In this document: piece by piece, positions 2,470 to 63,340 of the stretch
Position numbering within the stretch: the stretch's first letter is position 1
Layout: every line of letters begins with the position of its first letter
From: Xanthobacteraceae bacterium
GTDB lineage: Bacteria; Pseudomonadota; Alphaproteobacteria; Rhizobiales; Xanthobacteraceae
Assembly: GCA_031291475.1 (NCBI GenBank)
Contig: JARLIY010000096.1
Span: 26,653-90,652, forward strand
Direction of reading: 5' to 3'
Length of the DNA stretch: 64,000 nt
Made by a program: the position numbers and the translations under genes
Notes under the pieces: generated by a model
Seen by the model: only the letters and a program-made list of their open reading frames with translations
Database searches by the model: none
Told to the model about the DNA's origin: nothing

Positions 2470-3660
2470 ATGGCCCTTTATGCGATGTCTGCCGCGCACG
2501 GCGCCGGCGCCAGGCTGGCCCGGCCGGTGGAACTCATCTGCTTTGCGCTGGTGGTGGCGCAGGCCGTCTATCTTGCCACCTCTTTCCTGCAAGGCTTCTG
2601 GATCGTGGGCCCCGGCGGCGGCGTGCCCTCGGACTTCGTCAACGTCTGGGCCGCCGGCCGCCTCGTGCTCGAAGGCCACCCGGCCGCGGTCTATGACTGG
2701 CCGGCGCACAAGCTCGTCGAAGAAGCCGCGGTCGGCCATCCCTTCGACGGCTATTTCGGCTGGCATTATCCGCCGACATTCCTGTTCGTCGCCGCCCTTT
2801 TGTCGCTCCTGACCTACGCCACGGCTTACGCGCTCTGGGTGTTCGGCACCTTTCCGGCCTATCTCGTCGCCATCCGCGCCATTATCGGCGAGCGCAACGG
2901 CTATCTGCTCGCCGCGGCGTTTCCCGCTTTGCTGGGGAATTTCATCGTCGGCCAGAACGGATTCCTCACCGCCGGCCTCGCCGGCGGCGCGCTTTTTCTT
3001 TTGCCGCGGCGGCCAATCGTCGCCGGACTGTTGATCGGTCTCCTCACCTACAAGCCGCATCTCGGTGTGTTGTTTCCGATCGCACTGGTGGCCGGCGGCT
3101 ATTGGCGGACATTTTTCACCGCCGTGATCGTTGCGGCGCTGATGGGTCTGGCGGCATGGTTGGCCTTCGGCAGCGACACCTGGCAGGCTTTCTTCGCCAA
3201 TATCGGCCACACGTCGACGGCCTTCCTGTCCGATGGCTGGGCGGACTTCGGCAAGCTGCAAACCGCGTTCGGACTGACGCGCACGCTTGGCGGCAGCGAG
3301 ACTTTGGCCTGGGCCGTGCAGGCCGCATTCGCGCTTGTGGCCGCAATCGCGATCGCGCTCCTGTGGCGGAGCCAAGCGCCTCACGAGATCAAAGCCGCGG
3401 CGCTCGGCGCCGGCGCCATGCTGGCGACGCCCTATCTCTACACCTACGACCTGGTCGTGCTGGCGGTGCCGCTCGCCTTTCTGTTCCGGCTCGGCCGCGC
3501 GCGCGGATTCCTGCCGCAGGAGACGGCCGGCATCTGCGTCGCCTGCCTGCTGATCCTGATCTTTCCCTTCGTCAAAGCGCCGGTCGGCTTCGCCGCCGTG
3601 CTGATCGTGGCGGCGCTGATCGCGCGCCGCGCGCTCGCTCCGCAGAGCACCGCCATATGA
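2470..3660 (+). CDS. Glycosyltransferase family 87 / DUF2029 membrane protein (copy 1)
   Basis: Multi-TM protein with DFVNVWAAGRL...YDWPAHK...GWHYPPTFLF and LLTYKPHLGVLFP motifs typical of GT87. Confidence 0.75.
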   Translation: MALYAMSAAHGAGARLARPVELICFALVVAQAVYLATSFLQGFWIVGPGGGVPSDFVNVWAAGRLVLEGHPAAVYDWPAHKLVEEAAVGHPFDGYFGWHYPPTFLFVAALLSLLTYATAYALWVFGTFPAYLVAIRAIIGERNGYLLAAAFPALLGNFIVGQNGFLTAGLAGGALFLLPRRPIVAGLLIGLLTYKPHLGVLFPIALVAGGYWRTFFTAVIVAALMGLAAWLAFGSDTWQAFFANIGHTSTAFLSDGWADFGKLQTAFGLTRTLGGSETLAWAVQAAFALVAAIAIALLWRSQAPHEIKAAALGAGAMLATPYLYTYDLVVLAVPLAFLFRLGRARGFLPQETAGICVACLLILIFPFVKAPVGFAAVLIVAALIARRALAPQSTAI

Positions 3661-4973
3661 CGTTTCGTCATTGCGAGGAGCCAACGGGCTTGGCCCGAAG
3701 TGGCCGGCCCGATGACAAGCTCCGCAACGAAGCAATCCAGAATCCGCGGCGGCAGACTGGATTGCTTCGCTTCGCTCGGAATGACGATAGTGCGTCCCCG
3801 CCGGCAACGCGCCTCCTCGCGCTGATCGGACTGATCCTGGCGCTCGGTTATCTGGTGGTGCTCGGCGGCGCCTATCGCGACGGATATTTTTTGACCGACG
3901 CCCGGAGACAGCCGATCGCCAACGACTTCGTCAACGTTTTCGCCGCCGGACGGCTCGCGCTCGATGGCCACGCGGCCGCTGCCTATGACTGGCCGCAGCA
4001 CAAGGCCGCCGAAATCCGCGCCGTCGGCCACGACTTCCCCAATTACTACGGCTGGCACTATCCGCCGCCATTCTTGTTCGTTGCCGCGGCGCTGGCGGCC
4101 TTGCCCTATCTCGCCGCCGCGACCATCTGGCTTCTCGCCACGGTCGCCGCCTATGCGGCGACTTTGCGCAGTATTCTCGGCGGACGCGCGGGAGTTTTCC
4201 TCGCGCTCGGTTTTCCCGCGGCATTGTGGAACGCGACCGCCGGGCAAAACGGCTTCCTCACCGCGGCGCTCATCGGCGGCACGCTCGCTTTGCTGGAGCG
4301 GCGTCCGCTCCTTGCCGGTATTTGCCTCGGCCTCCTCACCTACAAGCCGCAATTTGGATTACTGTTTCCCATTGTGCTGATCGCCGACCGGCGCTGGGCG
4401 ATGCTCGCCGCCGCCGCCATCGTCGCCGTCGCGCTCGCCGCATTGTCGTGGCTCGCCTTCGGCAGTGCCGCCTGGGAAGGCTTTATCCATTCGACGCCGC
4501 TAACCAGCCGTGTCGTGCTCGGCGAAGGCGGCGCCGACTGGGAGCGGCTGCAAAGCCTATTCGGGTTGGTGCGCGCGCATGGCGGCGGGGAAACGCTGGC
4601 TTGGACCGTACAGGCCATCGCCATGCTCGCGCTCACCGTCGGACTCGTTTGGCTGTGGCGAAGCCGAGCGGCCTACGACCTCAAAGCCGCCGCGCTTGCC
4701 GCCGGTGCGCTCCTCGCCACGCCCTACCTCTATATCTACGATATCGTCGTGCTGGCGGTCGCGGTCGCCTTCCTACTCCGCTATGCGCTTGCACGCGGAT
4801 TCACCGCCGCCGAAATCCTCGGCCTGCCGGTCGCCGGCGCGCTTCTGCTCGCTTACCCCTACGCGAAAACCCAGGTCGGTTTGGCGGCGGCTACGATCGT
4901 CTTGGCGCTGGTGGCGCACCGCGCTTTTGCCGAACTTCGTCCGCTCGTCCCCGCGGAAGCGGGGACCCAGTAA
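3657..4973 (+). CDS. Glycosyltransferase family 87 / DUF2029 membrane protein (copy 2, tandem paralog)
   Basis: Same motifs as the preceding ORF (DFVNVFAAGRLALDGH, YYGWHYPPPFLFV, LLTYKPQFGLLFP); ATGA overlap with copy 1; N- and C-termini lie in dispersed repeats. Confidence 0.75.
   Translation: MTFRHCEEPTGLARSGRPDDKLRNEAIQNPRRQTGLLRFARNDDSASPPATRLLALIGLILALGYLVVLGGAYRDGYFLTDARRQPIANDFVNVFAAGRLALDGHAAAAYDWPQHKAAEIRAVGHDFPNYYGWHYPPPFLFVAAALAALPYLAAATIWLLATVAAYAATLRSILGGRAGVFLALGFPAALWNATAGQNGFLTAALIGGTLALLERRPLLAGICLGLLTYKPQFGLLFPIVLIADRRWAMLAAAAIVAVALAALSWLAFGSAAWEGFIHSTPLTSRVVLGEGGADWERLQSLFGLVRAHGGGETLAWTVQAIAMLALTVGLVWLWRSRAAYDLKAAALAAGALLATPYLYIYDIVVLAVAVAFLLRYALARGFTAAEILGLPVAGALLLAYPYAKTQVGLAAATIVLALVAHRAFAELRPLVPAEAGTQ
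3666..3786. repeat. Dispersed palindromic repeat (CGTCATTGCGAGGAG...GAAGCAATCCAG...CTGGATTGCTTCG...GGAATGACG)
   Basis: Inverted arms GAAGCAATCCAG / CTGGATTGCTTC and CGTCATTGCGAG / CGGAATGACG; minus-strand reading gives the familiar HSERSEAIQ artefact peptide. Confidence 0.85.
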
Positions 4974-5024
4974 AAAGCGCGACCGGTACCAGTCGTGTGG
5001 ATTCCCGCTTGCGCGGGAATGAGC
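4946..5024. repeat. Dispersed palindromic repeat pair (GTCCCCGCGGAAGCGGGGAC ... GGATTCCCGCTTGCGCGGGAATGAGC)
   Basis: Two back-to-back GC-rich hairpins; overlaps the 3' end of the second GT87 gene. Confidence 0.8.
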
Positions 5025-5073
5025 GGATGTGCTCGGAGAAGGGCAACAATCTGCAAGGCTACGGAGAGGCAAA

Positions 5074-6339
5074 ATGTCTGCAACATCGCGACGGCACGGC
5101 TTGGCGGCCCTGATGCGCGCCGCCGCATTGCTGACGGTCCTGGCCGCGGTTCCGGCCCAAGCCGCCGATCCGATCAAAATCGGGCTGGGCATGTCGCTCA
5201 CCGGCAAGCTCGCCAACAACGGCAAGATGTCGCTCGTGGCGATGCAGATCTGGGAAGACGACATCAATGCCAAGGGCGGCCTGCTCGGCCGGCCGGTCAA
5301 GCTCGTCTACTACGACGATCAGAGCGAGCCGGGACAGATTCCCGGCATCTATTCGAAGCTCCTCGATATCGACAAGGTCGATCTGATCGTGAGCGGCTAT
5401 GCCTCCACCCAGATCGCCGCGGCCATGCCGCTGGCAATGGAGCGGAAGAAATTGTTCATCGGTCTCGCCGGGACCGCCATCAACGACGAATTCCACTATC
5501 CGATGTATTTCGCCATGGTGCCGAACGGCCCGACGCCGAAGCCGGCCTTTACCCATGGCTTCTTCAAGGTGGCCGAGGCGCAGACTCCGAAGCCCGAAAC
5601 CATCGCGTTGGCCTATGCGGATGCCGAGTTCGGCCAGAATGTCTGCCAGGGAGCGCGCGAGAACGCCAAGGCGTCCGGCTTCAAGATCATCTACGACAAG
5701 AACTATCCGCCATCGACGGTCGATTTCACGCCGGTGGTGCGCGCGATCGCGGCGCGCGATCCGGACCTGCTGGTCGTGTGTTCCTATCCGCTCGACACCG
5801 TCGGTATCGTCAAGGCGATGCACGAGGTCGGCTTCAAGCCGAAAATGTGGGGCGGAGCGATGGTCGGCCTGCAATCCACCGCGCTCAAGGCGCAACTCGG
5901 GCCGCTGCTCAACGGCATCGTCAATTTCGAGACCTGGATGCCGGTCAAGGCCCGGGAGACTGCGGACTCCGTCGATTTCCTCAACAAATACAAAGCGCGC
6001 GCCAAAACTGCCGGCACGGATGCACTCGCTTACTTTCCGGTGATGGCCTATGCCGATCTGCAAGTGCTCGGCGAGGCCGTCGCTGCCACCAAGAGTCTCA
6101 AGGACGACGTGCTCGCTGCCTATATGCACCGGGCCACGTTCAAGACCGTGGTCGGCGACATCACATTCGGCGAGAACGGCGAGTGGACGGAGGACCACAT
6201 GCTGTCGGCGCAGTTCCAGAACATCACGAGCAACAGCGTCGAGGAATTCCGCGACCTGACGACCGAAGTGGTGGTCTATCCGCCGCAGCTGAAAAGCGGC
6301 GCGCTCATCTATCCGTATGCGAATGCGGTGGGGAATTGA
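5074..6339 (+). CDS. ABC transporter substrate-binding protein, branched-chain amino-acid (Leu/Ile/Val-binding) type
   Basis: Signal peptide LLTVLAAVPAQA then ADPIKIGLGMSLTGKLANNGKMSLVAMQIWEDDINAKGGLLGRPVKLVYYDDQSEP. Confidence 0.88.
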   Translation: MSATSRRHGLAALMRAAALLTVLAAVPAQAADPIKIGLGMSLTGKLANNGKMSLVAMQIWEDDINAKGGLLGRPVKLVYYDDQSEPGQIPGIYSKLLDIDKVDLIVSGYASTQIAAAMPLAMERKKLFIGLAGTAINDEFHYPMYFAMVPNGPTPKPAFTHGFFKVAEAQTPKPETIALAYADAEFGQNVCQGARENAKASGFKIIYDKNYPPSTVDFTPVVRAIAARDPDLLVVCSYPLDTVGIVKAMHEVGFKPKMWGGAMVGLQSTALKAQLGPLLNGIVNFETWMPVKARETADSVDFLNKYKARAKTAGTDALAYFPVMAYADLQVLGEAVAATKSLKDDVLAAYMHRATFKTVVGDITFGENGEWTEDHMLSAQFQNITSNSVEEFRDLTTEVVVYPPQLKSGALIYPYANAVGN

Positions 6340-6372
6340 CGCTGCCTACACCGATCACGCCGCGCCTGCCGT

Positions 6373-6561
6373 CTCACCTCTCCCCGTGGGGGAGAGGTCG
6401 CGAGCGGAGCGAGCGGGTGAGGGTGCAGATTTGCGAGGTCGGTCCCCCTCACCCGCCTCGCTCACTTCGTTCGCTATAACCGATGCTCCGCATCGGCGTT
6501 GTTGTTGCCAAGAACGGCGTCCGCAGGACGCCTATGTCCCTCTCCCCACCGGGGAGAGGGG
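6373..6561. repeat. Dispersed CTCACCTCTCCCC...GGGGAGAGGT type repeat
   Basis: CCTCTCCCCGTGGGGGAGAGG hairpin, GCGAGCGGAGCGAGCGGGTGAGGGT, and terminal CCCTCTCCCCACCGGGGAGAGGG. Confidence 0.75.
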
Positions 6562-6580
6562 AAATGAAACGGACGCGTGA

Positions 6581-7123
6581 ATGCCCGAACCGATGATCCG
6601 GCCGTCTGCCGCACTCTTGTTCTTTAATGGCCTCACGTGCGTTGCGGCGCTCGCCGGCTGCGCGGACAGCACCGCGCCAACCGGCCAGCCGAGCTTCTAT
6701 CAGGACCTCGCTCACTCGGACACCGCGCTCGATGCCACCGCCGCGGCATCGATGATTTCCGGCTATCGCGGCAACAACGGCCTGCCGCCGGTCACCGTCG
6801 ACCCCGAGCTGATGCGAATGGCGAGCGAGCAGGCGCGCGCCATGGCGGCGCATGACAAGATGGATCACGATATCGGCCGCCCGTTCCACGATCGCATCCG
6901 CAATTCGCCGTTCCGCGGCAGCGTCGCGGTGGAAAATATTTCCGCGGGCTATCACACGCTTGCCGAGGCATTTTCCGGCTGGCGCGATTCACCGCCGCAT
7001 CGCGCCAACATGCTTAATGCCGGCGTCACCCGCATGGGGATCGCGGCGGTCTATGCGCCGGGCTCGAAATACAAGGTGTTCTGGGCGCTGATCCTCGCCG
7101 GGCCGGATGGGCGAAAGGGGTGA
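6581..7123 (+). CDS. CAP (SCP/PR-1-like) domain secreted lipoprotein
   Basis: Lipobox-like LAGCADS; SEQARAMAAHDKMDHDIG, VAVENISAGYHTLAEAFSGWRDSPPHRANMLNAGVTRMGIA motifs. Confidence 0.85.
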   Translation: MPEPMIRPSAALLFFNGLTCVAALAGCADSTAPTGQPSFYQDLAHSDTALDATAAASMISGYRGNNGLPPVTVDPELMRMASEQARAMAAHDKMDHDIGRPFHDRIRNSPFRGSVAVENISAGYHTLAEAFSGWRDSPPHRANMLNAGVTRMGIAAVYAPGSKYKVFWALILAGPDGRKG

Positions 7124-7128
7124 TCTTC

Positions 7129-7152
7129 TTTCCCCCGCAACGCGGGGGAGGG
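7129..7152. terminator. GC hairpin after the CAP gene, terminator-like or short repeat
   Basis: CCCCCGCAACGCGGGGG stem-loop directly downstream of the stop codon. Confidence 0.35.
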
Positions 7153-7225
7153 AGCATTATTGCGTCGCAGCAAAATTAGCGTCACATTAGCCGCGCCGGA
7201 ATGCGGGCAAGACGTGTGAAAGACC

Positions 7226-9313
7226 ATGGATGACCAGCCGCGCCGCGATCAGCCATTAAGCGGCAAGAAAGAGCCGCCGCGCGACCGGCCGCGACGCGAG
7301 ACGGCATCAGACGACAAGCCATCACCCAACAAGCCATCACGCGATAAGGCATTGCGCGACAAGCCTTGGATCTTCCGCACCTATGCGGGCCATTCGGATG
7401 CGAAGGCCTCGAACGCGCTTTACCGTAAGAATCTGAGCAAGGGGCAGACCGGCCTCTCCGTCGCCTTCGATCTACCGACCCAGACCGGGTACGACTGCGA
7501 TCATCCGCTCGCCAAGGGCGAAGTCGGCAAGGTCGGCGTACCGATCTCGCACCTCGGCGACATGCGCGTCTTGTTTGACGGCATCCCGCTCGGCGAGATG
7601 AACACGTCGATGACCATCAACGCCACCGCCGCCTGGCTGCTCGCGCTCTATGTGGCGCTCGCCGACGAGCAAGGCGTCGCGCGTAAAAAGCTCACCGGCA
7701 CGACGCAGAACGACATCATCAAGGAATACCTTTCACGCGGTACCTACGTATTTCCCCCGGCGCCGTCGATGCGGCTGACCAAGGACGTGATCCTGTTCAC
7801 GACCAAGGAAATGCCGAAATGGAATCCGATGAATGTCTGCTCCTATCACCTGCAGGAGGCCGGCGCGACGCCGGTGCAGGAGCTCGCTTTCGCGCTCGCC
7901 ACCGCCATCGGCGTGCTCGATGCGGTGAAGGCGTCGGGCCAATGCGCCGAGGAAGAATTCGGCGAGGTGGTCGGGCGCATCTCGTTCTTCGTCAACGCCG
8001 GGCTGCGCTTCGTCACCGAAGTCTGCAAGCTGCGCGCCTTCACCGAATTGTGGAACGAGATCACCCGCGAGCGCTACGGCGTGACCGACCCGAAGCACCG
8101 GCTGTTCCGCTACGGCGTGCAGGTCAATTCGCTGGGGCTCACCGAGCAGCAGCCGGAGAACAACGTCGCCCGCATCCTGATCGAGATGCTCGCGGTCACC
8201 TTGTCGAAAAACGCCCGCGCGCGGGCGGTGCAGCTGCCGGCCTGGAACGAGGCGCTCGGCCTGCCGCGGCCCTGGGACCAGCAATGGTCGCTGCGCATGC
8301 AGCAAATCCTCGCTTACGAGACCGACCTCCTGGAATACGGCGACATTTTCGAGGGCTCCCCGGCCATCGCCGCCAAGGTCGGCGAGCTCAAGGCCGCGGC
8401 GAAGGAGGAGCTGAAACACATCGAAGCGATGGGCGGCACCGTCGCCGCGGTCGAGTCGGGCTATCTCAAGCAGCAGCTCGTCGAATCGAATTCGCGCCGG
8501 GTCGAGGCGATCGAGCGCGGCGAGCAGACCGTGGTCGGCGTCAACCGCTTCGTCGAGACCGAGCCTTCTCCTTTGGCGGACGCCGCCGACGCGATCCTCA
8601 CCGTGGCCGACGAAGCCGAGACGCGGCAGATCGAGCGGCTCAAAGCCTGGCGCGCTGCGCGCGACAACGCCGCCGTCGCCGCCGCGCTCGCGGCCTTGCG
8701 CAAGGCGGCGAAAAGCGGCGCCAACATCATGCCGGCCTCGATCGACTGCGCCAAAGCCGGCGTCACCACCGGCGAATGGGGCTTTGCCTTGCGCTCGGCT
8801 TTCGGCGAATACCGCGCGCCGACCGGCGTCGGCACCGCCATGCGCAACGACGCCGAAGGGCTCGACGACATCCGCGCCGAGGTCGACCGCGTATCGAAGA
8901 AGCTCGGCCGCCGGCTGAAAGTGCTGGTCGGCAAGCCCGGCCTCGACGGCCACTCCAACGGCGCCGAGCAGATCGCCGCCCGCGCCCGCGATGCCGGCAT
9001 GGAGGTGGTCTATGACGGCATCCGCCTCACCGCGGAGGCGATCGCCGCCGCGGCGGCGGAGAAAAACGTGCACGTCGTCGGCCTGTCGATCCTCTCCGGC
9101 TCGCATCTGCCGCTGGTGGCCGACGTGATCGCGCGCATGAAGGAGGCCGGGCTGAAGGACGTGCCGATCGTCGTCGGCGGCATCATCCCGCCGCAGGACG
9201 CCAGCGCCTTGAAAAGCGCCGGCGTGGCGCAAGTCTACACGCCGAAGGATTTCGAATTAAACCGCATCATGGCCGATCTGGTGCGGATCGTGGAGGGCTC
9301 GGCGCCGCGATAG
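7226..9313 (+). CDS. ecm: Ethylmalonyl-CoA mutase (MeaA-type B12-dependent acyl-CoA mutase)
   Basis: IFRTYAGHSDAKASNALYRKNLSKGQTGLSVAFDLPTQTGYD, NTSMTINATAAWLLALY, C-terminal B12 domain KPGLDGHSNGAEQIAARARDAGMEVVYDGIRLT. Confidence 0.9.
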   Translation: MDDQPRRDQPLSGKKEPPRDRPRRETASDDKPSPNKPSRDKALRDKPWIFRTYAGHSDAKASNALYRKNLSKGQTGLSVAFDLPTQTGYDCDHPLAKGEVGKVGVPISHLGDMRVLFDGIPLGEMNTSMTINATAAWLLALYVALADEQGVARKKLTGTTQNDIIKEYLSRGTYVFPPAPSMRLTKDVILFTTKEMPKWNPMNVCSYHLQEAGATPVQELAFALATAIGVLDAVKASGQCAEEEFGEVVGRISFFVNAGLRFVTEVCKLRAFTELWNEITRERYGVTDPKHRLFRYGVQVNSLGLTEQQPENNVARILIEMLAVTLSKNARARAVQLPAWNEALGLPRPWDQQWSLRMQQILAYETDLLEYGDIFEGSPAIAAKVGELKAAAKEELKHIEAMGGTVAAVESGYLKQQLVESNSRRVEAIERGEQTVVGVNRFVETEPSPLADAADAILTVADEAETRQIERLKAWRAARDNAAVAAALAALRKAAKSGANIMPASIDCAKAGVTTGEWGFALRSAFGEYRAPTGVGTAMRNDAEGLDDIRAEVDRVSKKLGRRLKVLVGKPGLDGHSNGAEQIAARARDAGMEVVYDGIRLTAEAIAAAAAEKNVHVVGLSILSGSHLPLVADVIARMKEAGLKDVPIVVGGIIPPQDASALKSAGVAQVYTPKDFELNRIMADLVRIVEGSAPR

Positions 9314-9358
9314 CGCAGCGTCATTCCGGATCACTCCACCTCAGGATGACGGGTGAAG

Positions 9359-9490
9359 TTGCGGCACCGATTGATTCGCCGCATTTGCCGTTTCTTCGTT
9401 GAGCTCGGCGGCGATGTCACGGTTCATCGTCGCCTCGACGTCGCGAATGAGCCGATAGACCTCGACCCCGTCCATGACGCGATGATCGAA
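9359..9490 (-). pseudogene. C-terminal remnant of a 2-oxoacid dehydrogenase E2/CoA-dependent acyltransferase-like protein
   Basis: Reverse strand reads ...SFFDHRVMDGVEVYRLIRDVEATMNRDIAAELNEETANAANQSVPQLHPSS*; HRVxDG is the E2 acyltransferase active-site motif; no upstream gene body. Confidence 0.55.
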
Positions 9491-9868
9491 GAAGCTACCG
9501 ACCGGTTCGGCGACAACGGCATCATCGGCGTCGTGGCGGTGGCGCGCGATTCGGACGCCGACGCACGGATAGATCTATGGCTGATGTCCTGCCGCGTGCT
9601 CGGCCGCAAGGTGGAGGAGGCGATCCTCGCCGACGTTGTGGCGCGCGCGCGTGCGTTCGGCGCGCGCCGGCTGATCGGCGAATACAATCCGACGGCGAAG
9701 AACGCGCTGGTGCGCGAGCTTTACCCGCACCTCGGTTTCAAGGAGCTAAGCCGCAGCGGCGCGAGCGTGTTCTACGCACTGCCGCTTGACGACATGCGCG
9801 CGGGTGCAAGCGTTGAGTTCATCGCCATGGCGGAACGCGGCGCGCCGGCCGTGGCGACGGCGGGCTAG
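9490..9868 (+). pseudogene. C-terminal (GNAT-like) fragment of an FkbH-type HAD protein
   Basis: ATDRFGDNGIIGVVAVARDSDADARIDLWLMSCRVLGRKVEEAILADVVARARAFGARRLIGEYNPTAKNALVRELYPHLGF resembles the FkbH C-terminus; N-terminal HAD domain absent. Confidence 0.6.
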
Positions 9869-11062
9869 CTAGCGGATCACCGCCGTGATCGCTTCGCTGA
9901 GCGCACTCGGACTGACTGGCTTGCGCAGATAGAAGTCCATGCCGGCCGCGCGCGCCGCATCTTCGTCGCCCGGCTCGGTGCGGCCGGATATGCCGATGAT
10001 CGGCGTGCGGCCGGCGGCGCCGGCGAGCGCGCGGATGCGGCGCGCCGCTTCGAGGCCGTCGATGCCGGGCAAAGTCGCATCCATCAGCACCACGTCATAG
10101 CCTCGCGCCGCCGCCGCGACCGCTTCCTCGCCCGAGGCGGCGAAGTCGGCGCGGTGACCGAGTTCGCGGAGAATGGTGTTGAGAATGACCCGTCCGTAGG
10201 GATTGTCCTCGGCATAGAGGATCGCGAGTTGCCGCGCCGGGCGCAACGGCTGCGGCGCCGGCGCCTGTTCGGCCGCTTCACCGCGCGCGATCCCGAACAC
10301 TGCCGAGAGACGGAAACGCGAGCCGCGGCCGAACACGCTGGAAACGGTCAGATCGCCGCCCATCAGCTTCGCCAGCGCCTTGACGGCGGCAAGCCCCAAC
10401 CCGGCGCCGCCATAGCGCCGCGCAATATCGGCGTTGGCCTGGGCGAACGGACGGAACAGGCGTTTGATCTCGGCGGGCTTGAGCCCGATGCCGCTGTCGG
10501 TGACGGTGAAATCAAGCCGCACCTTGCCGCGCGCGGCGCGCGGCGCGCGCACGTCGAGCTGCACCGTGCCGCGTTCGGTGAATTTCACCGCATTGTCGAT
10601 CAGATTTTCCAGCGCGGCGCGAAGCCGCACGGCGTCGCCCACGAGCATTTCCGGCACATCGTCGGCGACCTTGAGCGCGCCGGCGAGGCCCTTGGTTTCG
10701 GCGCGGGCGAGAAGCGAATCTGCCAGCGCCCCGATGAGACGGCGCGGCCGGAAAGCTTCCTCTTGGAGCGTCAGCGCGCCGGCATCGGCCTTGGCGGCGT
10801 CGATCATCAAGGTGGTCAGCGAAGCAAGATGCTCGGCGCCGTCCTTGACGCCCGACGCCCAGCGCCGCTCGTGCTCGCCGAGACCGGAGCTCGCCAGCAA
10901 CTCGCCGAGCGCCAGGATACCGGTGAGCGCCGTGCGGATATCGTGCGCATACGCCACTAGCGAAGCTTCGGTTACGCGCGGGTGCGGCGCCGCCGGCGCG
11001 CGCCGCCTGGTCCGACGCCGCGCCGGCTTCGCCGAAGTCTTTTTCGACCTCAAACGCGCCAT
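9869..11062 (-). CDS. Hybrid sensor histidine kinase/response regulator (HisKA-HATPase-REC), apparently soluble
   Basis: H-box VAYAHDIRTALTGI, N-box LENLIDNAVKF, G-box DSGIGL...GGAGLGLA, REC domain DVVLMDATLPGIDGLEAARRI. Confidence 0.88.
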   Translation of the reverse strand: MARLRSKKTSAKPARRRTRRRAPAAPHPRVTEASLVAYAHDIRTALTGILALGELLASSGLGEHERRWASGVKDGAEHLASLTTLMIDAAKADAGALTLQEEAFRPRRLIGALADSLLARAETKGLAGALKVADDVPEMLVGDAVRLRAALENLIDNAVKFTERGTVQLDVRAPRAARGKVRLDFTVTDSGIGLKPAEIKRLFRPFAQANADIARRYGGAGLGLAAVKALAKLMGGDLTVSSVFGRGSRFRLSAVFGIARGEAAEQAPAPQPLRPARQLAILYAEDNPYGRVILNTILRELGHRADFAASGEEAVAAAARGYDVVLMDATLPGIDGLEAARRIRALAGAAGRTPIIGISGRTEPGDEDAARAAGMDFYLRKPVSPSALSEAITAVIR

Positions 11063-58193: not shown

Positions 58194-58865
58194 TCAGTCG
58201 ATCCCGTTTTCCCGCACCGGCCGCTCCGACATGGCGGAGACCGGACCGGGCTCCATGAATGCAGCGAAGAAAGAGCGCAGGCTGGGCTCATTGGCCGCGC
58301 CGCGCGGAATGGATCCGGTGATCTCGGCAGGCGGGCTTGGTTCGCCGACTGCCACGCGCGGGCTTGGCTCGGGCGGGCTCGGCTCAGTGGCCGCGGCAAA
58401 CGAAGAGCGCGGGCTGGGCTCGCTGCCAAGAGTGAAAAAGGAATGCGGGGCGGGATCCGCGGCCGTAACAGGGAGCACGCGCGGACACGGCGAGCCCGCC
58501 GCGTACATCGCGACGACAACGTGCTTGTCTTCGCACATCAGCGCCAGCGCCGCATGTTGAAAGCCAAAGGCATAAAGCTGCCGCGCGAGCAGACGGATGG
58601 TGCATCCTTCCTCGACCGTGGTGGTGCCGAAGGTGAAGCCGCCGCCCATCGCCGAAAATCCGCCCGAGGCAGAACCGAGACAAGTTTCCACTCCCGCCGC
58701 GGCGAGACCGGGAGCGACCACGGTCGGCGCCGAAATCACCCGACTCGTCGTACTTGCGGGATCGCTTGAGTTGATCATGGCCATCGAGCCGGATGTACTT
58801 CCCATAGTTTGCGCGCAAACCGGGGTAGCAATCAGCAGTAAAGCGAGGGCCATCCACAGACGCAT
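58194..58865 (-). CDS. Secreted hypothetical protein with Pro/Ser/Glu repeat C-terminus
   Basis: Signal peptide MRLWMALALLLIATPVCAQ; C-terminal EPSPRSSFAAATEPSPPEPSPRVAVGEPSPP repeats. Confidence 0.65.
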   Translation of the reverse strand: MRLWMALALLLIATPVCAQTMGSTSGSMAMINSSDPASTTSRVISAPTVVAPGLAAAGVETCLGSASGGFSAMGGGFTFGTTTVEEGCTIRLLARQLYAFGFQHAALALMCEDKHVVVAMYAAGSPCPRVLPVTAADPAPHSFFTLGSEPSPRSSFAAATEPSPPEPSPRVAVGEPSPPAEITGSIPRGAANEPSLRSFFAAFMEPGPVSAMSERPVRENGID

Positions 58866-58988: not shown

Positions 58989-58996
58989 GTTAATCC
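58989..58996 (+). repeat. Left 8-bp target-site duplication GTTAATCC
   Basis: Identical to 62029-62036; abuts the left IR. Confidence 0.9.
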
Positions 58997-59020
58997 GGCA
59001 ACTATGTACTTGACAACGGA
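58997..59020 (+). repeat. Left terminal inverted repeat
   Basis: GGCAACTATGTACTTGACAACGGA. Confidence 0.93.
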
Positions 59021-59074
59021 GCGGGCATGTCGCATCCCGAAAAACGACAGGCCGACGCTTGGGTTACGTCGAAA

Positions 59075-59653
59075 CTAAGCGCCCCCGATCCTCAACTTTG
59101 CCTCTCGACGTTTCTTTCGCGCCGCCTTGCTCTTATGACCGCGAAAACGGTCCGAAGGCGGGAGCTTCTGGCTAAATCCACACTTCATCAGGAACGCCAT
59201 CAGCGACATGCCCGCTTGGTAGACGAAGAGGGCTTCGCGTTTGACCTGATCGACCGTCATTGGAATTAGTGAAGTTTCGACGCGCGTTCGCGCCGTGTCT
59301 TTCACCGTAAAAATCTGGCCGGTATCGGGATCGCGGCACCAACTATAGTGCACGACTCCATTTCTCTTTTTGAAAGCCTCTTCAATTGTATCGATGATGT
59401 TGTCCAGCTCATCTAAAGTGTCCAAATCGTCAATTCGGATTTCTGCGGAAGCGAGAAGGACGCTGAAGCGGAGCGGCATTGCCATGTGCGTGGTGACCGC
59501 TTGGCCGTATTCGACATCAATATCGAGAAAGCAAGCTATCGCCATTTCCACAACGTTTTCTGTCTGAGCCGCACACGTGGTCATGAGACCAATGGCTTCG
59601 AGCATGTCTTGTGGTAGGTTGCGCGGATCGAAATCATATTCCTTAAACGCCAT
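59075..59653 (-). CDS. IS passenger hypothetical protein
   Basis: MAFKEYDFDPRNLPQDMLEAIGLMTTCAAQTENVVEMAIACFLDIDVEYGQAVTTHM...; start chosen at MAFKEY; lies between the IRs. Confidence 0.65.
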   Translation of the reverse strand: MAFKEYDFDPRNLPQDMLEAIGLMTTCAAQTENVVEMAIACFLDIDVEYGQAVTTHMAMPLRFSVLLASAEIRIDDLDTLDELDNIIDTIEEAFKKRNGVVHYSWCRDPDTGQIFTVKDTARTRVETSLIPMTVDQVKREALFVYQAGMSLMAFLMKCGFSQKLPPSDRFRGHKSKAARKKRREAKLRIGGA

Positions 59654-59816
59654 GGCAAAAGCCTCTAAGCTCGGTCTTGACGAAGCGACGCTGCGTATCG
59701 CGCGGCGAATGTTAAGCTCGCCGCCCAAGCCGCATGAGGAAATGAAGCTGGGCAAGCCTAGAGCGAAATCGAAAAAGAATCCCGCACAGAAGACAACGAA
59801 AAAGCCAAGCAGGTAG
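59652..59816 (+). CDS. Small basic conserved hypothetical protein (IS passenger)
   Basis: MAKASKLGLDEATLRIARRMLSSPPKPHEEMKLGKPRAKSKKNPAQKTTKKPSR; resembles short proteins with a PPKPHxxMK motif. Confidence 0.5.
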   Translation: MAKASKLGLDEATLRIARRMLSSPPKPHEEMKLGKPRAKSKKNPAQKTTKKPSR

Positions 59817-59821
59817 CCTAA

Positions 59822-60154
59822 TCATTCGACCTTGACGTGGGCTGCAAATGTCCACAGGCAATCGTATACGCCGCGCGGTCGAATGCAGACATGACTGTAA
59901 TCTCTCTGGACCGATCCTTTGTCTATTTTGACGAATGTCTTTGGGGCCAGCGTGACGCAATTGTGGTCATTCTTGAATGCGATAGCGGCGCTGACATCAT
60001 CGGACAATAAGGTCGCATATTGCACGAAATCGTCCTCTTTCGGACAGGCGATTGTAATATCTACCGTCATGGCTGGCTGGGCGCGTGCTGCCCTGTGAGA
60101 GAGGCAGAAAATCGCCGCCCCCAATAAGGTGAGGACTAAGAAATGCCTGACCAT
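59822..60154 (-). CDS. Secreted hypothetical protein (IS passenger)
   Basis: MVRHFLVLTLLGAAIFCLSHRAARAQPAMTVDITIACPKEDDFVQYATLL...; signal peptide, Cys-containing. Confidence 0.6.
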   Translation of the reverse strand: MVRHFLVLTLLGAAIFCLSHRAARAQPAMTVDITIACPKEDDFVQYATLLSDDVSAAIAFKNDHNCVTLAPKTFVKIDKGSVQRDYSHVCIRPRGVYDCLWTFAAHVKVE

Positions 60155-60188
60155 GCGAGCGGTATTCTTAGATTTGAGAAGGACGGGT

Positions 60189-60467
60189 CTACCTCTGGGC
60201 ATCTTTACCTGGACCTAAGAGAGTCTGTGCGACGTTCAGAAAAGCGTCAGCGGCGAGCTTTAATTGTCGCGCGGCTTGCTCGATTGCTTCGTGTTCGTCT
60301 TTCGCGTTATCAAATGGAAACTCCAATTTTGCCCCCGGTACCACCCGCTCTGGTTTCAGTTCAAAAATTACTGTCCCGCTTACGGTCCACGTTCCGTCTG
60401 TGATAGTGGTTTGCTTTATGTCGATTCTTGGTTGACCGCTTATAAGAGAAGAAAAAATAGTAGGCAT
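60189..60467 (-). CDS. Hypothetical protein (IS passenger)
   Basis: MPTIFSSLISGQPRIDIKQTTITDGTWTVSGTVIFELKPERVVPGAKLEFPFDNAKDEHEAIEQAARQLKLAADAFLNVAQTLLG. Confidence 0.55.
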   Translation of the reverse strand: MPTIFSSLISGQPRIDIKQTTITDGTWTVSGTVIFELKPERVVPGAKLEFPFDNAKDEHEAIEQAARQLKLAADAFLNVAQTLLGPGKDAQR

Positions 60468-60617
60468 CGTTATTTTCCTCTACGTTTGCGCCAACGCAGA
60501 AACGCCTTCGCTTTCTGCTTAATGGTGCCTCTCGTTAGTCGGCCGGCACGTAAGGCGTCTCCGCGCTAGTCGTCGAGTTCTGACGCGTAACTTCTCCAAT
60601 TAAACCGGAATTTTGGA

Positions 60618-60940
60618 CGATGCCCGGGCTTGGGGCCGGGCATCGCCATCTCACTACAAACATGGAGGGCAACTCTACTCTAGGCCGTCACTGGCCCATT
60701 GGGGATGCGATCCCCCAACGCTAGTAGAACAAGAAGGACAGTTGTCCCGGCCACCTTCGCCAGTGCTCACGCACATGCTCACGGCGGCCATGGCGTGTTC
60801 GCTCGTAAGAGCAAACATGCACTGCCTTCACTGACATGTTTGCCATGTCAGGGCTCCATGCTTGGGCGGGTTAAAGCCCACCGCTCCAAACCTGCTGCAT
60901 GCAGGTTGCGGGACGCGGGAGTCCGGCCTAATGGGCCGGG
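60618..60940 (+). ncRNA. Candidate structured non-coding RNA: array of at least seven hairpins, strand assumed
   Basis: Stems CGATGCCCGG/CCGGGCATCG, GGGGAT/ATCCCC, GCTC-GTAA-GAGC, CTGACATG/CATGTCAG, TGGGC/GCCCA, AACCTGC/GCAGGTT, CCGGCC/GGCCGG in order; no convincing ORF. Confidence 0.45.
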
Positions 60941-61051
60941 CGGCATGGAGGTGCCAGTGACGGCCTATTTCACCGTGAGTCGGGGTATCGACGCAATCGG
61001 CGCTTGCGCCATCTGTGGAAACGTTTGGCTTGTTGTTTCAGCAACTTAGGT

Positions 61052-61972
61052 TCAGTGAGTCGGCCGGTACGTGAGGCGCTTGCCGGTGATACCCTTGGCA
61101 ATGAGCGCCGCACGTTCCCCGTCATTGATCTTGCGGGTGTTCCACTTGAAATCCCATTCCGCAAGATAGCGCGGCAAATGGGCTTCGCTGATTGAATGAT
61201 GCGTGCCGAACACGGCGCGCTTCATAAGGCTAAAGCGGCTCTCCGCCGTATTGACGTGAGCGAAGCCGCCAAGGCGGACGTACTCGTTCGCTGAGTGATT
61301 GACGGTCGTATGACCGGCAAACTCCTTGCCGATTGAGCCGTAGGACAACAACTCGTCAGTCACCAAGTGCGACTTGCGGTCGGCGACCTTGACCATGGCC
61401 GCGCGTAGCGTCCGGGCCTTCACGTTGGCGACGTGAAACGAGTGGCTATCGCCGTCGCGATCAACCAAAGTCAGGACCGAATGTTTCTTAGGTGGCTTCT
61501 TCGCATAGGCGCGGTTCTTCGCCTTGCCGCCAATCACGGTTTCGTCGCTCTCGACCGTGCGACCTTGGCCGCCGATAGGGCCGCGCTTCGCGGGCGTCAT
61601 CGCTTCCCTAATGCGATGACAGAGGAACCACGCGGACTTGTAGGTGACACCAAGCATGCGCTGCAATTGAAGCGCGCTCACGCCTTTCTTTGAGGCACCC
61701 ATGAGGTGCATTGCTAGGAGCCACTTGGAGAGCGGAATCTTGCTGCGCTCCATGACCGTGCCGACCGTGACCGTGAATTGGCCGTTGCATTCGGCGCAAT
61801 AGTACAGGCCGGGACGATGGGCTTTGCCTTCGCCCTTGGCGATCTTCTCTTGATCGGAGTTGCCGCAATGCGGACAAAACGGACCATTGGGCCAGCGGAT
61901 CGCCTCAAGGGTTTCGCGGGCCTTATCGTCGTTGTGAAACGCGGGGTTTTGGAGATCGGCGCTCATGGGCAA
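61052..61972 (-). CDS. IS1595 family (ISXO2-like) transposase
   Basis: Zn-ribbon CPHCGNSDQEKIAK...YYCAECNGQFTVTVGTVMERSKIPLSKWLLAMHLM, DDE-like ESDETVIGGKAKNR...VTDELLSY...NTAESRFSLMKRAVFGTHHSISEAHLPRYLAEWDFKWNTR. Confidence 0.93.
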   Translation of the reverse strand: MPMSADLQNPAFHNDDKARETLEAIRWPNGPFCPHCGNSDQEKIAKGEGKAHRPGLYYCAECNGQFTVTVGTVMERSKIPLSKWLLAMHLMGASKKGVSALQLQRMLGVTYKSAWFLCHRIREAMTPAKRGPIGGQGRTVESDETVIGGKAKNRAYAKKPPKKHSVLTLVDRDGDSHSFHVANVKARTLRAAMVKVADRKSHLVTDELLSYGSIGKEFAGHTTVNHSANEYVRLGGFAHVNTAESRFSLMKRAVFGTHHSISEAHLPRYLAEWDFKWNTRKINDGERAALIAKGITGKRLTYRPTH

Positions 61973-62004
61973 CTCCCTATGACGCCAATCTATACCCCGG
62001 CGCT

Positions 62005-62028
62005 TCCGTTGTCAAGTATATAGTTGCC
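62005..62028 (-). repeat. Right terminal inverted repeat
   Basis: Reverse complement reads GGCAACTATATACTTGACAACGGA. Confidence 0.93.
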
Positions 62029-62036
62029 GTTAATCC
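62029..62036 (+). repeat. Right 8-bp target-site duplication GTTAATCC
   Basis: Identical to 58989-58996. Confidence 0.9.
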
Positions 62037-62132: not shown

Positions 62133-63260
62133 CTAGCGCAGCCCGGCCTGTTTGAGGAGCGGCATGGTGTCCTTCTGGAACGTCAGCACCCCCTCCTCAT
62201 AGAGCGGCCAGGACAACAACGCGCCGTCGATTCCGACCTTGGACAGATTGGCCAGTCCCTCGGCGACCTGCTCCTTGGTGCCGACCAGCGGGAAGGCGCC
62301 CCATCCGGCCATGAAATGCGCTTGCAGCTTTCTGAAATCCTCGACCGCAAGCGAGCCGATACCGAGGAGTCCCATCAGATTTTCCGCAGCCACCCAGTCG
62401 CCCTTTTCGTGCACGTAATAATGCAGAAAATCCTTGGCTTCCTTTTCGGTCTCGCGCTGTACGACGTAGCCGAAGCTCCAGATCTGAATGTCGCGGCCGT
62501 ATTCTTCGCGCGCCAGCCGCCGGTACTTCTCGACCTTCGAGCGGGCGAAATCGAGATCGTGCGTGTCGAACTGGATGAAGGCGATATCGGAATACTTGGC
62601 GGAAAAGTGCTGGCCCTGCTCCGAGCCGCCGGCATTCATGATTGCCGGGTAGGGCTGCTGGATCGGCTTCGGCGCCAGTGCGCCTTTCTTCACCTGGTAA
62701 TATTGTCCTTCGTAGGTGAATTCATTCTCGCACGTCCACAGCCCGATCATGATTTCGATCCATTCGGCTGCTCGGGCGTAGCGGTCTTTGTGATCCTGCA
62801 TGCGCGCGCCGAACATATCGAGCTCACCCTGATTCCATCCGCCGACGATGTTGATGGCGTGCCGGCCGTTGCTGATGTGATCGATGACGGTTGCCTGCTT
62901 GGCCGCCAAAGCCGGGTGGTACATCGGGACGTGCGAGGTCGCGAACACCGCCGGATATTTGGTCACGGCGCCGATGCCCGCCGCCCAGGAAAAGCATTCG
63001 AAACCGGCGCCGTTGAAATTGGTGACTCCGCCGAAGCCCTTCCAGCGCCCGACCGGCACGACCGCTTCGAACTCCATCGCGTCCGCGATCTGGGCGAGCC
63101 TGACCGTATTGGGCCAGGTGATCTCCAGCGTTCCGGGGATCGTGCTGATCGCGCATCCGCCGTTCAGATTGGTGCAGAACGTGCCGAGCTTGAGCTTGCG
63201 ATCGTTGAACAGCGGATTGGTGGCGCGGCGAAGTTCCTGGATTTTCGCGGTGGTATGCAT
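62133..63260 (-). CDS. LLM class flavin-dependent oxidoreductase (SsuD/DszA/RutA-like)
   Basis: KLKLGTFCTNLNGGCAISTIPGTLEITWPNTVRLAQIADAMEFEAVVPVGRWKGFGG...INIVGGWNQGELDMFG. Confidence 0.88.
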   Translation of the reverse strand: MHTTAKIQELRRATNPLFNDRKLKLGTFCTNLNGGCAISTIPGTLEITWPNTVRLAQIADAMEFEAVVPVGRWKGFGGVTNFNGAGFECFSWAAGIGAVTKYPAVFATSHVPMYHPALAAKQATVIDHISNGRHAINIVGGWNQGELDMFGARMQDHKDRYARAAEWIEIMIGLWTCENEFTYEGQYYQVKKGALAPKPIQQPYPAIMNAGGSEQGQHFSAKYSDIAFIQFDTHDLDFARSKVEKYRRLAREEYGRDIQIWSFGYVVQRETEKEAKDFLHYYVHEKGDWVAAENLMGLLGIGSLAVEDFRKLQAHFMAGWGAFPLVGTKEQVAEGLANLSKVGIDGALLSWPLYEEGVLTFQKDTMPLLKQAGLR

Positions 63261-63340
63261 TCCGTCCCCCAAAGACGCGCAAGGCGGGCTCTATGCGGCC
63301 CTGCTGAGTGCATCTTTGCAGAAAACCTCGGAGGGGTGAA

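Follow-up and report, generated by a model that had tools for sequence, protein, structure and literature searches.

An IS1595-family transposon of a Xanthobacteraceae bacterium with a constant small protein, a HEPN-like effector and a candidate structured RNA

The 64,000-nucleotide window analysed here (assembly GCA_031291475.1, contig JARLIY010000096.1, positions 26,653 to 90,652 of the forward strand) comes from a Xanthobacteraceae bacterium and holds, at 58989-62036, an intact, cargo-carrying IS1595-family transposon of soil-type Alphaproteobacteria together with its target duplication. Taking the element with its relatives, we consider it fairly probable that it represents a toxin or abortive-infection module, in which a transposase and a small protein, termed S, stay constant and the effector is exchangeable. 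The effector of the window element appears to be a HEPN-like protein, and a putative structured RNA gene is located between the cargo and the transposase.

Both boundaries are precise to the base. The left, transposase-distal end GGCAACTATGTACTTGACAACGGA sits at 58997-59020 (+), and the right, transposase-proximal end GGCAACTATATACTTGACAACGGA at 62005-62028 (-); the two 24-bp terminal inverted repeats are identical at 23 of 24 positions, exactly as the initial annotation of this DNA had read them. The flanking 8-bp direct repeat that it had also described is a target site duplication (TSD), GTTAATCC, which abuts both ends in identical copies at 58989-58996 and 62029-62036. A search of the window for the 24-bp end, allowing up to three mismatches, returned the two terminal copies only, with none expected from shuffling. 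When mismatches in the 22-bp ends were counted and those in the TSD added with double weight, the element obtained a value of 1, whereas 20 shuffled loci never scored better than 8. It is present as a single copy in its own genome. The insertion is intact and thus probably not ancient, and to this extent the previous view of a fairly recent event holds. The suggested check for an empty site with one TSD copy was run on 61 relatives and resolved none in a sister species, as the joined 300 + 300-bp flanks matched in pieces that were mostly coding.

The intact transposase open reading frame (ORF) occupies 61052-61972 (-), with a better start at the ATG at 61966. It comprises an N-terminal zinc ribbon (PF12760, 5e-12) and the DDE_Tnp_IS1595 domain (PF12762, 3e-28), and it also matches NF033547 (2e-50); PF12762 and NF033547 exceed their curated cut-offs. 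An N-terminal zinc ribbon is a feature of all IS1595 groups except IS1016. Together with the 8-bp TSD and the matching inverted repeats, these domains place the element in the IS1595 family, in agreement with the earlier assignment and its single intact transposase. Passenger genes are said to have been recorded in this family by Siguier et al. in 2009. Their paper (Siguier, Gagnevin and Chandler 2009) is cited in PMC12561309 and PMC8101967, the latter of which describes members as having one transposase gene and TSDs that usually measure 8 bp. The window element shares the transposase domains, TSD and terminal inverted repeats of the family; however, where members are usually described as holding one transposase gene, its group also carries an effector and the constant protein S, in some cases together with a structured RNA.

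The closest relative, L032, is located at 3165-6980 of plasmid pMspAR07d from Mesorhizobium sp. AR07. Its ends differ from those of the window element at 1-2 positions and are flanked by a perfect TSD of its own, GAAAAATT, so another copy bounded by these repeats does exist; its absence had been named as a result that would speak against the element. The transposase of L032 is 82% identical to that of the window element, and the cargo differs. Among 84,980 species genomes searched with the ends, the only further matches were L056, a relative with a broken transposase frame and one matching end only in an Antarctic Hyphomicrobiales metagenome-assembled genome, and L057, which is truncated where its contig stops. 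At the DNA level, the element has matches in 37 genomes of the order (298 searched) and in 91 of the family (349 searched), and almost every match falls in the transposase. By seeking 22-bp inverted ends and an 8-bp duplication around each transposase, we delimited 58 related elements of 1.83-7.1 kb, mostly from Hyphomicrobiales, with a transposase gene of ~0.93 kb. A perfect 8-bp TSD flanks almost every element, and each exceeds its transposase gene by ~1 kb or more. The window element belongs to a large, apparently undescribed group of cargo-carrying elements; the presence of passenger genes was correctly predicted, whereas their description as unrelated DNA does not stand, since the cargo architecture recurs in dozens of elements.

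Protein S (59652-59816, +) is a basic protein of 54 residues whose sequence includes MAKASKLGLDEATLRIARRMLSSPPKPHEEMK and LSSPPKPHEEMK; its family ranges from 50 to 60 residues and has the signature LxTPPKP. The S gene diverges from the gene of the HEPN-like protein, and the two start codons overlap head-to-head in one CATG at 59651-59654. Seventeen S proteins make up alignment A2, and the window S has a hidden Markov model E value of ~1e-15, with its own sequence included in the training set. Profile search of 298 genomes, with transposases ignored, gave 34 matches, of which all except about three are near an IS1595 transposase; as S proteins from such elements had served to build the profile, the training matches are expected, and about half of the 34 are new. 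S is therefore an element-bound marker of this group. It was found in 44 of the 58 elements, 26 of which have the CATG start overlap, and 23 of these 26 partners possess a HEPN-like motif as counted by a loose rule.

The effectors are exchanged around the constant transposase and S. In L032, the A and B proteins of PD-Lambda-5 (PADLOC, 1e-124 and 1e-117) take the place of the HEPN-like effector and S is kept; S is all that the two elements have in common as cargo, so that the passenger set does not travel with the ends as a whole, contrary to what had been envisaged. By inspection, L101 also combines an A-like PD-Lambda-5 gene with S. PD-Lambda-5 is a known anti-phage system that has been validated against many phages in Escherichia coli (PMC9519451); neither its A nor its B gene is present in the window element. 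Other cargo in the group includes D12 and N6/N4 methyltransferases and Mrr-like, PIN, NYN, DUF3800 and Clp-like proteins, several of which are typical of defence or toxin systems. In L061, S is kept and the effector is replaced by a + strand gene.

The HEPN-like protein of the window (59075-59653, -; 192 residues) is encoded by the first gene inside the left end and is read toward that end, the mechanically called ORF extending to 59755. Many relatives encode a protein of 160-270 residues at the same position and in the same direction, with an RNxxxH or similar Rx4-6H motif. The window protein has RNGVVH, and its R97 and H102 are the sole fully invariant residues in the 14-member alignment A1, in which identity to the window protein is 9-18%; as the motif was partly used to pick the members, its invariance cannot count as independent evidence. 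AlphaFold with four sequences predicted a helical bundle with helices at residues 15-43, 59-73, 77-101 and 134-157 (predicted local distance difference test, pLDDT, 70; predicted template modelling score, 0.64), in which RNGVVH is positioned at the end of the third helix, the placement of the Rx4-6H motif in the HEPN superfamily; a single-sequence model reached a pLDDT of 39.5. Weak profile matches to HEPN, AbiU2, DUF4145, MtlR and Csx1-type proteins appeared in relatives, with MtlR just above the cut-off in L083. Two distant relatives of the window protein were found in the 298 genomes, and none in viral contigs or plasmids. The protein fits an all-helical, HEPN-like protein on the basis of its motif and predicted helices, and would probably cut RNA as a toxin or an anti-phage protein. 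It resembles the HEPN superfamily (PMC3710099) in the Rx4-6H motif, the helical fold and the setting in mobile elements and defence.

The region 60681-60967 (+), ~290 nt with a conserved core at 60721-60835, is predicted from sequence comparison to be a conserved structured RNA whose base pairs are kept through compensatory changes. Its closing stem is formed by TAGGCCGTCACTGGC and GCCAGTGACGGCCTA. The fold of 60600-60985 has an energy of -197 kcal/mol (z = -8.4 against shuffles), and the opposite strand also folds well (z = -7.8); we take the + strand of the window as the sense strand because a hairpin and T-run follow the L171 copy on that strand. Rfam 15 contains no covariance-model match for the region at E values up to 1; L171 has a sub-threshold match to P10 small RNA, elsewhere than its RNA copy. 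No match to the structured region was found in phages or plasmids by blastn, and the exact core pattern was present in no viral contig and in one of 200 family genomes, which made a covariance model necessary. Homologues in L176, L171 and L172 were reached through weak DNA matches at the family level; L176 is a relic with a transposase 3' end, a HEPN-like gene and S, and has the RNA at the equivalent place. The matches in L173 and L174, each covering one GC-rich hairpin region only, were judged unrelated. A 115-nt covariance model revealed strong independent copies in the further genomes L215, L216, L217 and L219, and a second model, run on 239 genomes of the order, found the RNA in 12, including the genome from which the window comes.

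In eight full-length copies, two-sided changes occur in 13 of the 24 pairs of four helices, and none of 500 shuffles was as good. In total, 85% of cells are paired, against 76.5% when shuffled and at most 56% when slid, and covariation is 0.302 against 0.161 +/- 0.023. The claim of covariation is based on this eight-sequence test; with only four RNA sequences, covariation in rigid columns did not exceed that of column shuffles. By inspection, all eight copies also pair in another helix, which surrounds the last three hairpins.

The RNA occurs inside delimited or relic IS1595 elements (the window, L062, L098, L148, L176, L217 and L218, of which L062 and L098 are weak). In L245, L246, L248 and L249 it accompanies IS1595 transposases that form a second, distant group. 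The window, L148 and L062 share the order of S, the RNA on the S strand and then the convergent transposase. The RNA is also present in regions that, by eye from neighbouring ORFs, look like early regions of prophages (L171, L215, L216, L219 and L243), several of which adjoin a CI-like repressor gene. Between L215 and L219, the genes that follow the RNA appear homologous, and L243 (genome G130) has two tandem copies at 5488-5599 and 5914-6031. In L218, L220, L222, L245, L246 and L248, the RNA is near a coiled-coil plus winged-helix gene, HARE-like by eye; the two could possibly form an RNA-protein pair. We tentatively propose, and give the joint claim slightly less than an even chance, that the ~290-nt RNA represents a so far unreported class of structured non-coding RNA of at least two IS1595 subgroups and of Hyphomicrobiales prophage-like regions, often near the coiled-coil/winged-helix gene and working with the transposon or its defence cargo, and that small transposons mobilise the S/effector pairs with overlapping starts as exchangeable defence cassettes of a new type.

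Several results weigh against a toxin module. The window HEPN-like protein has no match in Pfam, NCBIfam or PADLOC; Foldseek against the PDB gave nothing below E = 0.2, with no HEPN entry among the 50 matches listed, and the best viral Foldseek match (E 1.5e-3) is without a name. Neither profiles nor folds thus relate the protein significantly to a known HEPN protein, and no named HEPN family matches it significantly. In type II toxin-antitoxin modules of the classical kind, the adjacent genes of toxin and small antitoxin form a co-directional operon, whereas the S gene, although next to the HEPN-like gene, diverges from it with the CATG overlap. Moreover, S is not simply a HEPN antitoxin, because it accompanies PD-Lambda-5-type cargo without a HEPN-like gene in L032 and L101. 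S might instead be an accessory factor of transposition or a repressor of the transposase, with the effectors as independent neighbouring passengers. This possibility, which we take seriously and find doubtful on balance, agrees with the retention of S when the effector changes in L032, L101 and L061 and with its almost constant position next to an IS1595 transposase; however, the exact start-codon overlap in 26 elements suggests linked expression of S and effector, needless for a pure transposition factor, and no S was detectable in 14 of the 58 elements.

It is far less probable that the cargo is neutral host DNA caught by chance between two ends and that its recurring motifs are coincidental. 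The strong divergence of the effectors in A1 and the lack of relatives of two further cargo ORFs in the plasmid collection would suit such an origin, yet the position, the orientation, the R/H residues and the S partner are constant in dozens of elements across genera, and a known defence system is present in the nearest relative. As to 60681-60967, the inverted-repeat content that lets it fold well on either strand could mean that it acts as DNA, in the form of a palindromic cluster or a binding site. We regard this as unlikely, given that the single-strand core is conserved and keeps a fixed spacing, that the loops are conserved too, that compensatory pairs extend over the ~290-nt closing stem, and that a hairpin with T-run follows the L171 copy on one strand.

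Under the favoured reading as a toxin or abortive-infection module, the DDE transposase acts on the 24-bp ends and makes the 8-bp duplication, as the anatomy of the element shows, and forms the constant part together with S, the effector beside the distal end being exchangeable. As the effector here appears HEPN-like and probably RNA-cutting, the element would most likely function as a mobile module of this type. The HEPN-like protein may be restrained in healthy cells and act on RNA upon infection or loss of the element. S, whose start codon overlaps that of the toxin, may be a regulator or inhibitor of the toxin, or a regulator for the whole element. The RNA, on the S strand between S and the transposase 3' end, would be a separate RNA gene of IS1595 elements and prophage-like regions; our best guess is that it regulates expression of the element or its cargo.

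The initial annotation gave the extent of the cargo correctly at ~2 kb; its four uncharacterised ORFs under-read the content, which comprises the HEPN-like protein, S and two ORFs in addition to the structured RNA. These two, a 110-residue ORF with a signal-peptide-like N-terminus (59822-60154, -) and a 92-residue ORF (60189-60467, -), gave no relative, including in the plasmid collection. Next to them, 60480-60557 (-) is a remnant resembling the transposase 3' tail, recognised as direct repeat D1 (88% over 24 nt) and extended by inspection to ~75 nt, which is also found at 60985-61078. The remnant holds a short basic reading frame, RLTRGTIKQKAKAFLRWRKRRGK, also present out of frame after the real transposase. 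This resemblance suggests a trace of earlier recombination and a rearranged block between cargo and transposase, a plausible route of cargo swapping. Outside the element, G+C is ~0.65 on the left, compared to ~0.52 in the cargo. The insertion site is an intergenic stretch. On the left, a small secreted-type ORF (58194-58865, -) lies ~125 bp away, with the element on its upstream side; on the right, a luciferase-like monooxygenase-type ORF (62133-63272, -), named from its sequence alone, has its 3' end toward the element.

Several of the related elements have arrangements of their own. L090 (G000:C142, 7321-10244) is a second, different cargo element in the same genome, with the TSD AAACTTCT, a HEPN-like RDLIIH protein and an S-like protein. 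L071 (7708-12500) and L187 (3607-8136) are pairs of elements placed head to head with exactly one 8-bp target copy between them (AAATAAAT and AAAAAAAT, respectively), as if the second element had inserted into the target duplication of the first. The viral contig L102 carries a 5890-bp composite element (4934-10823) with two transposases, perfect 22-bp ends and the TSD GACTTTTA; it has two S/HEPN-like pairs inside, one with the exact start overlap.

Tn7-like elements are much larger and targeted. They share with the present group the frequent carriage of defence systems (PMC8649781), whereas the group consists of 2-4 kb single-transposase elements with one system each. The toxin-antitoxin modules of the Tn3 family, a survey of which lists one HEPN/MNT case, likewise represent interchangeable toxin-type modules at a fixed place of a transposon (PMC7157771); however, the window element has a transposase of another family, S instead of MNT and divergent genes with overlapping starts, and no resolvase gene or res site was seen in it. 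Among the open-access papers searched, none was found that connects IS1595 with HEPN cargo or with an RNA, the few that contain both terms being judged by title and abstract; this is weak evidence of novelty.

The interest of the element exceeds that of an insertion sequence with unknown cargo, because there is a rule to its cargo, and a new candidate RNA is part of it. If true, the structured RNA would define a new class of RNA that is clearly linked to mobile elements, and the constant S with its start overlap to changing effectors is a regulatory oddity open to testing. Clean ends and TSDs allow the cargo to be read mechanically, so that a search inside IS1595 ends may lead to new defence genes. 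Altogether, our findings suggest that, besides large islands and Tn7-like transposons, very small single-transposase elements move single anti-phage or toxin systems among Alphaproteobacteria.

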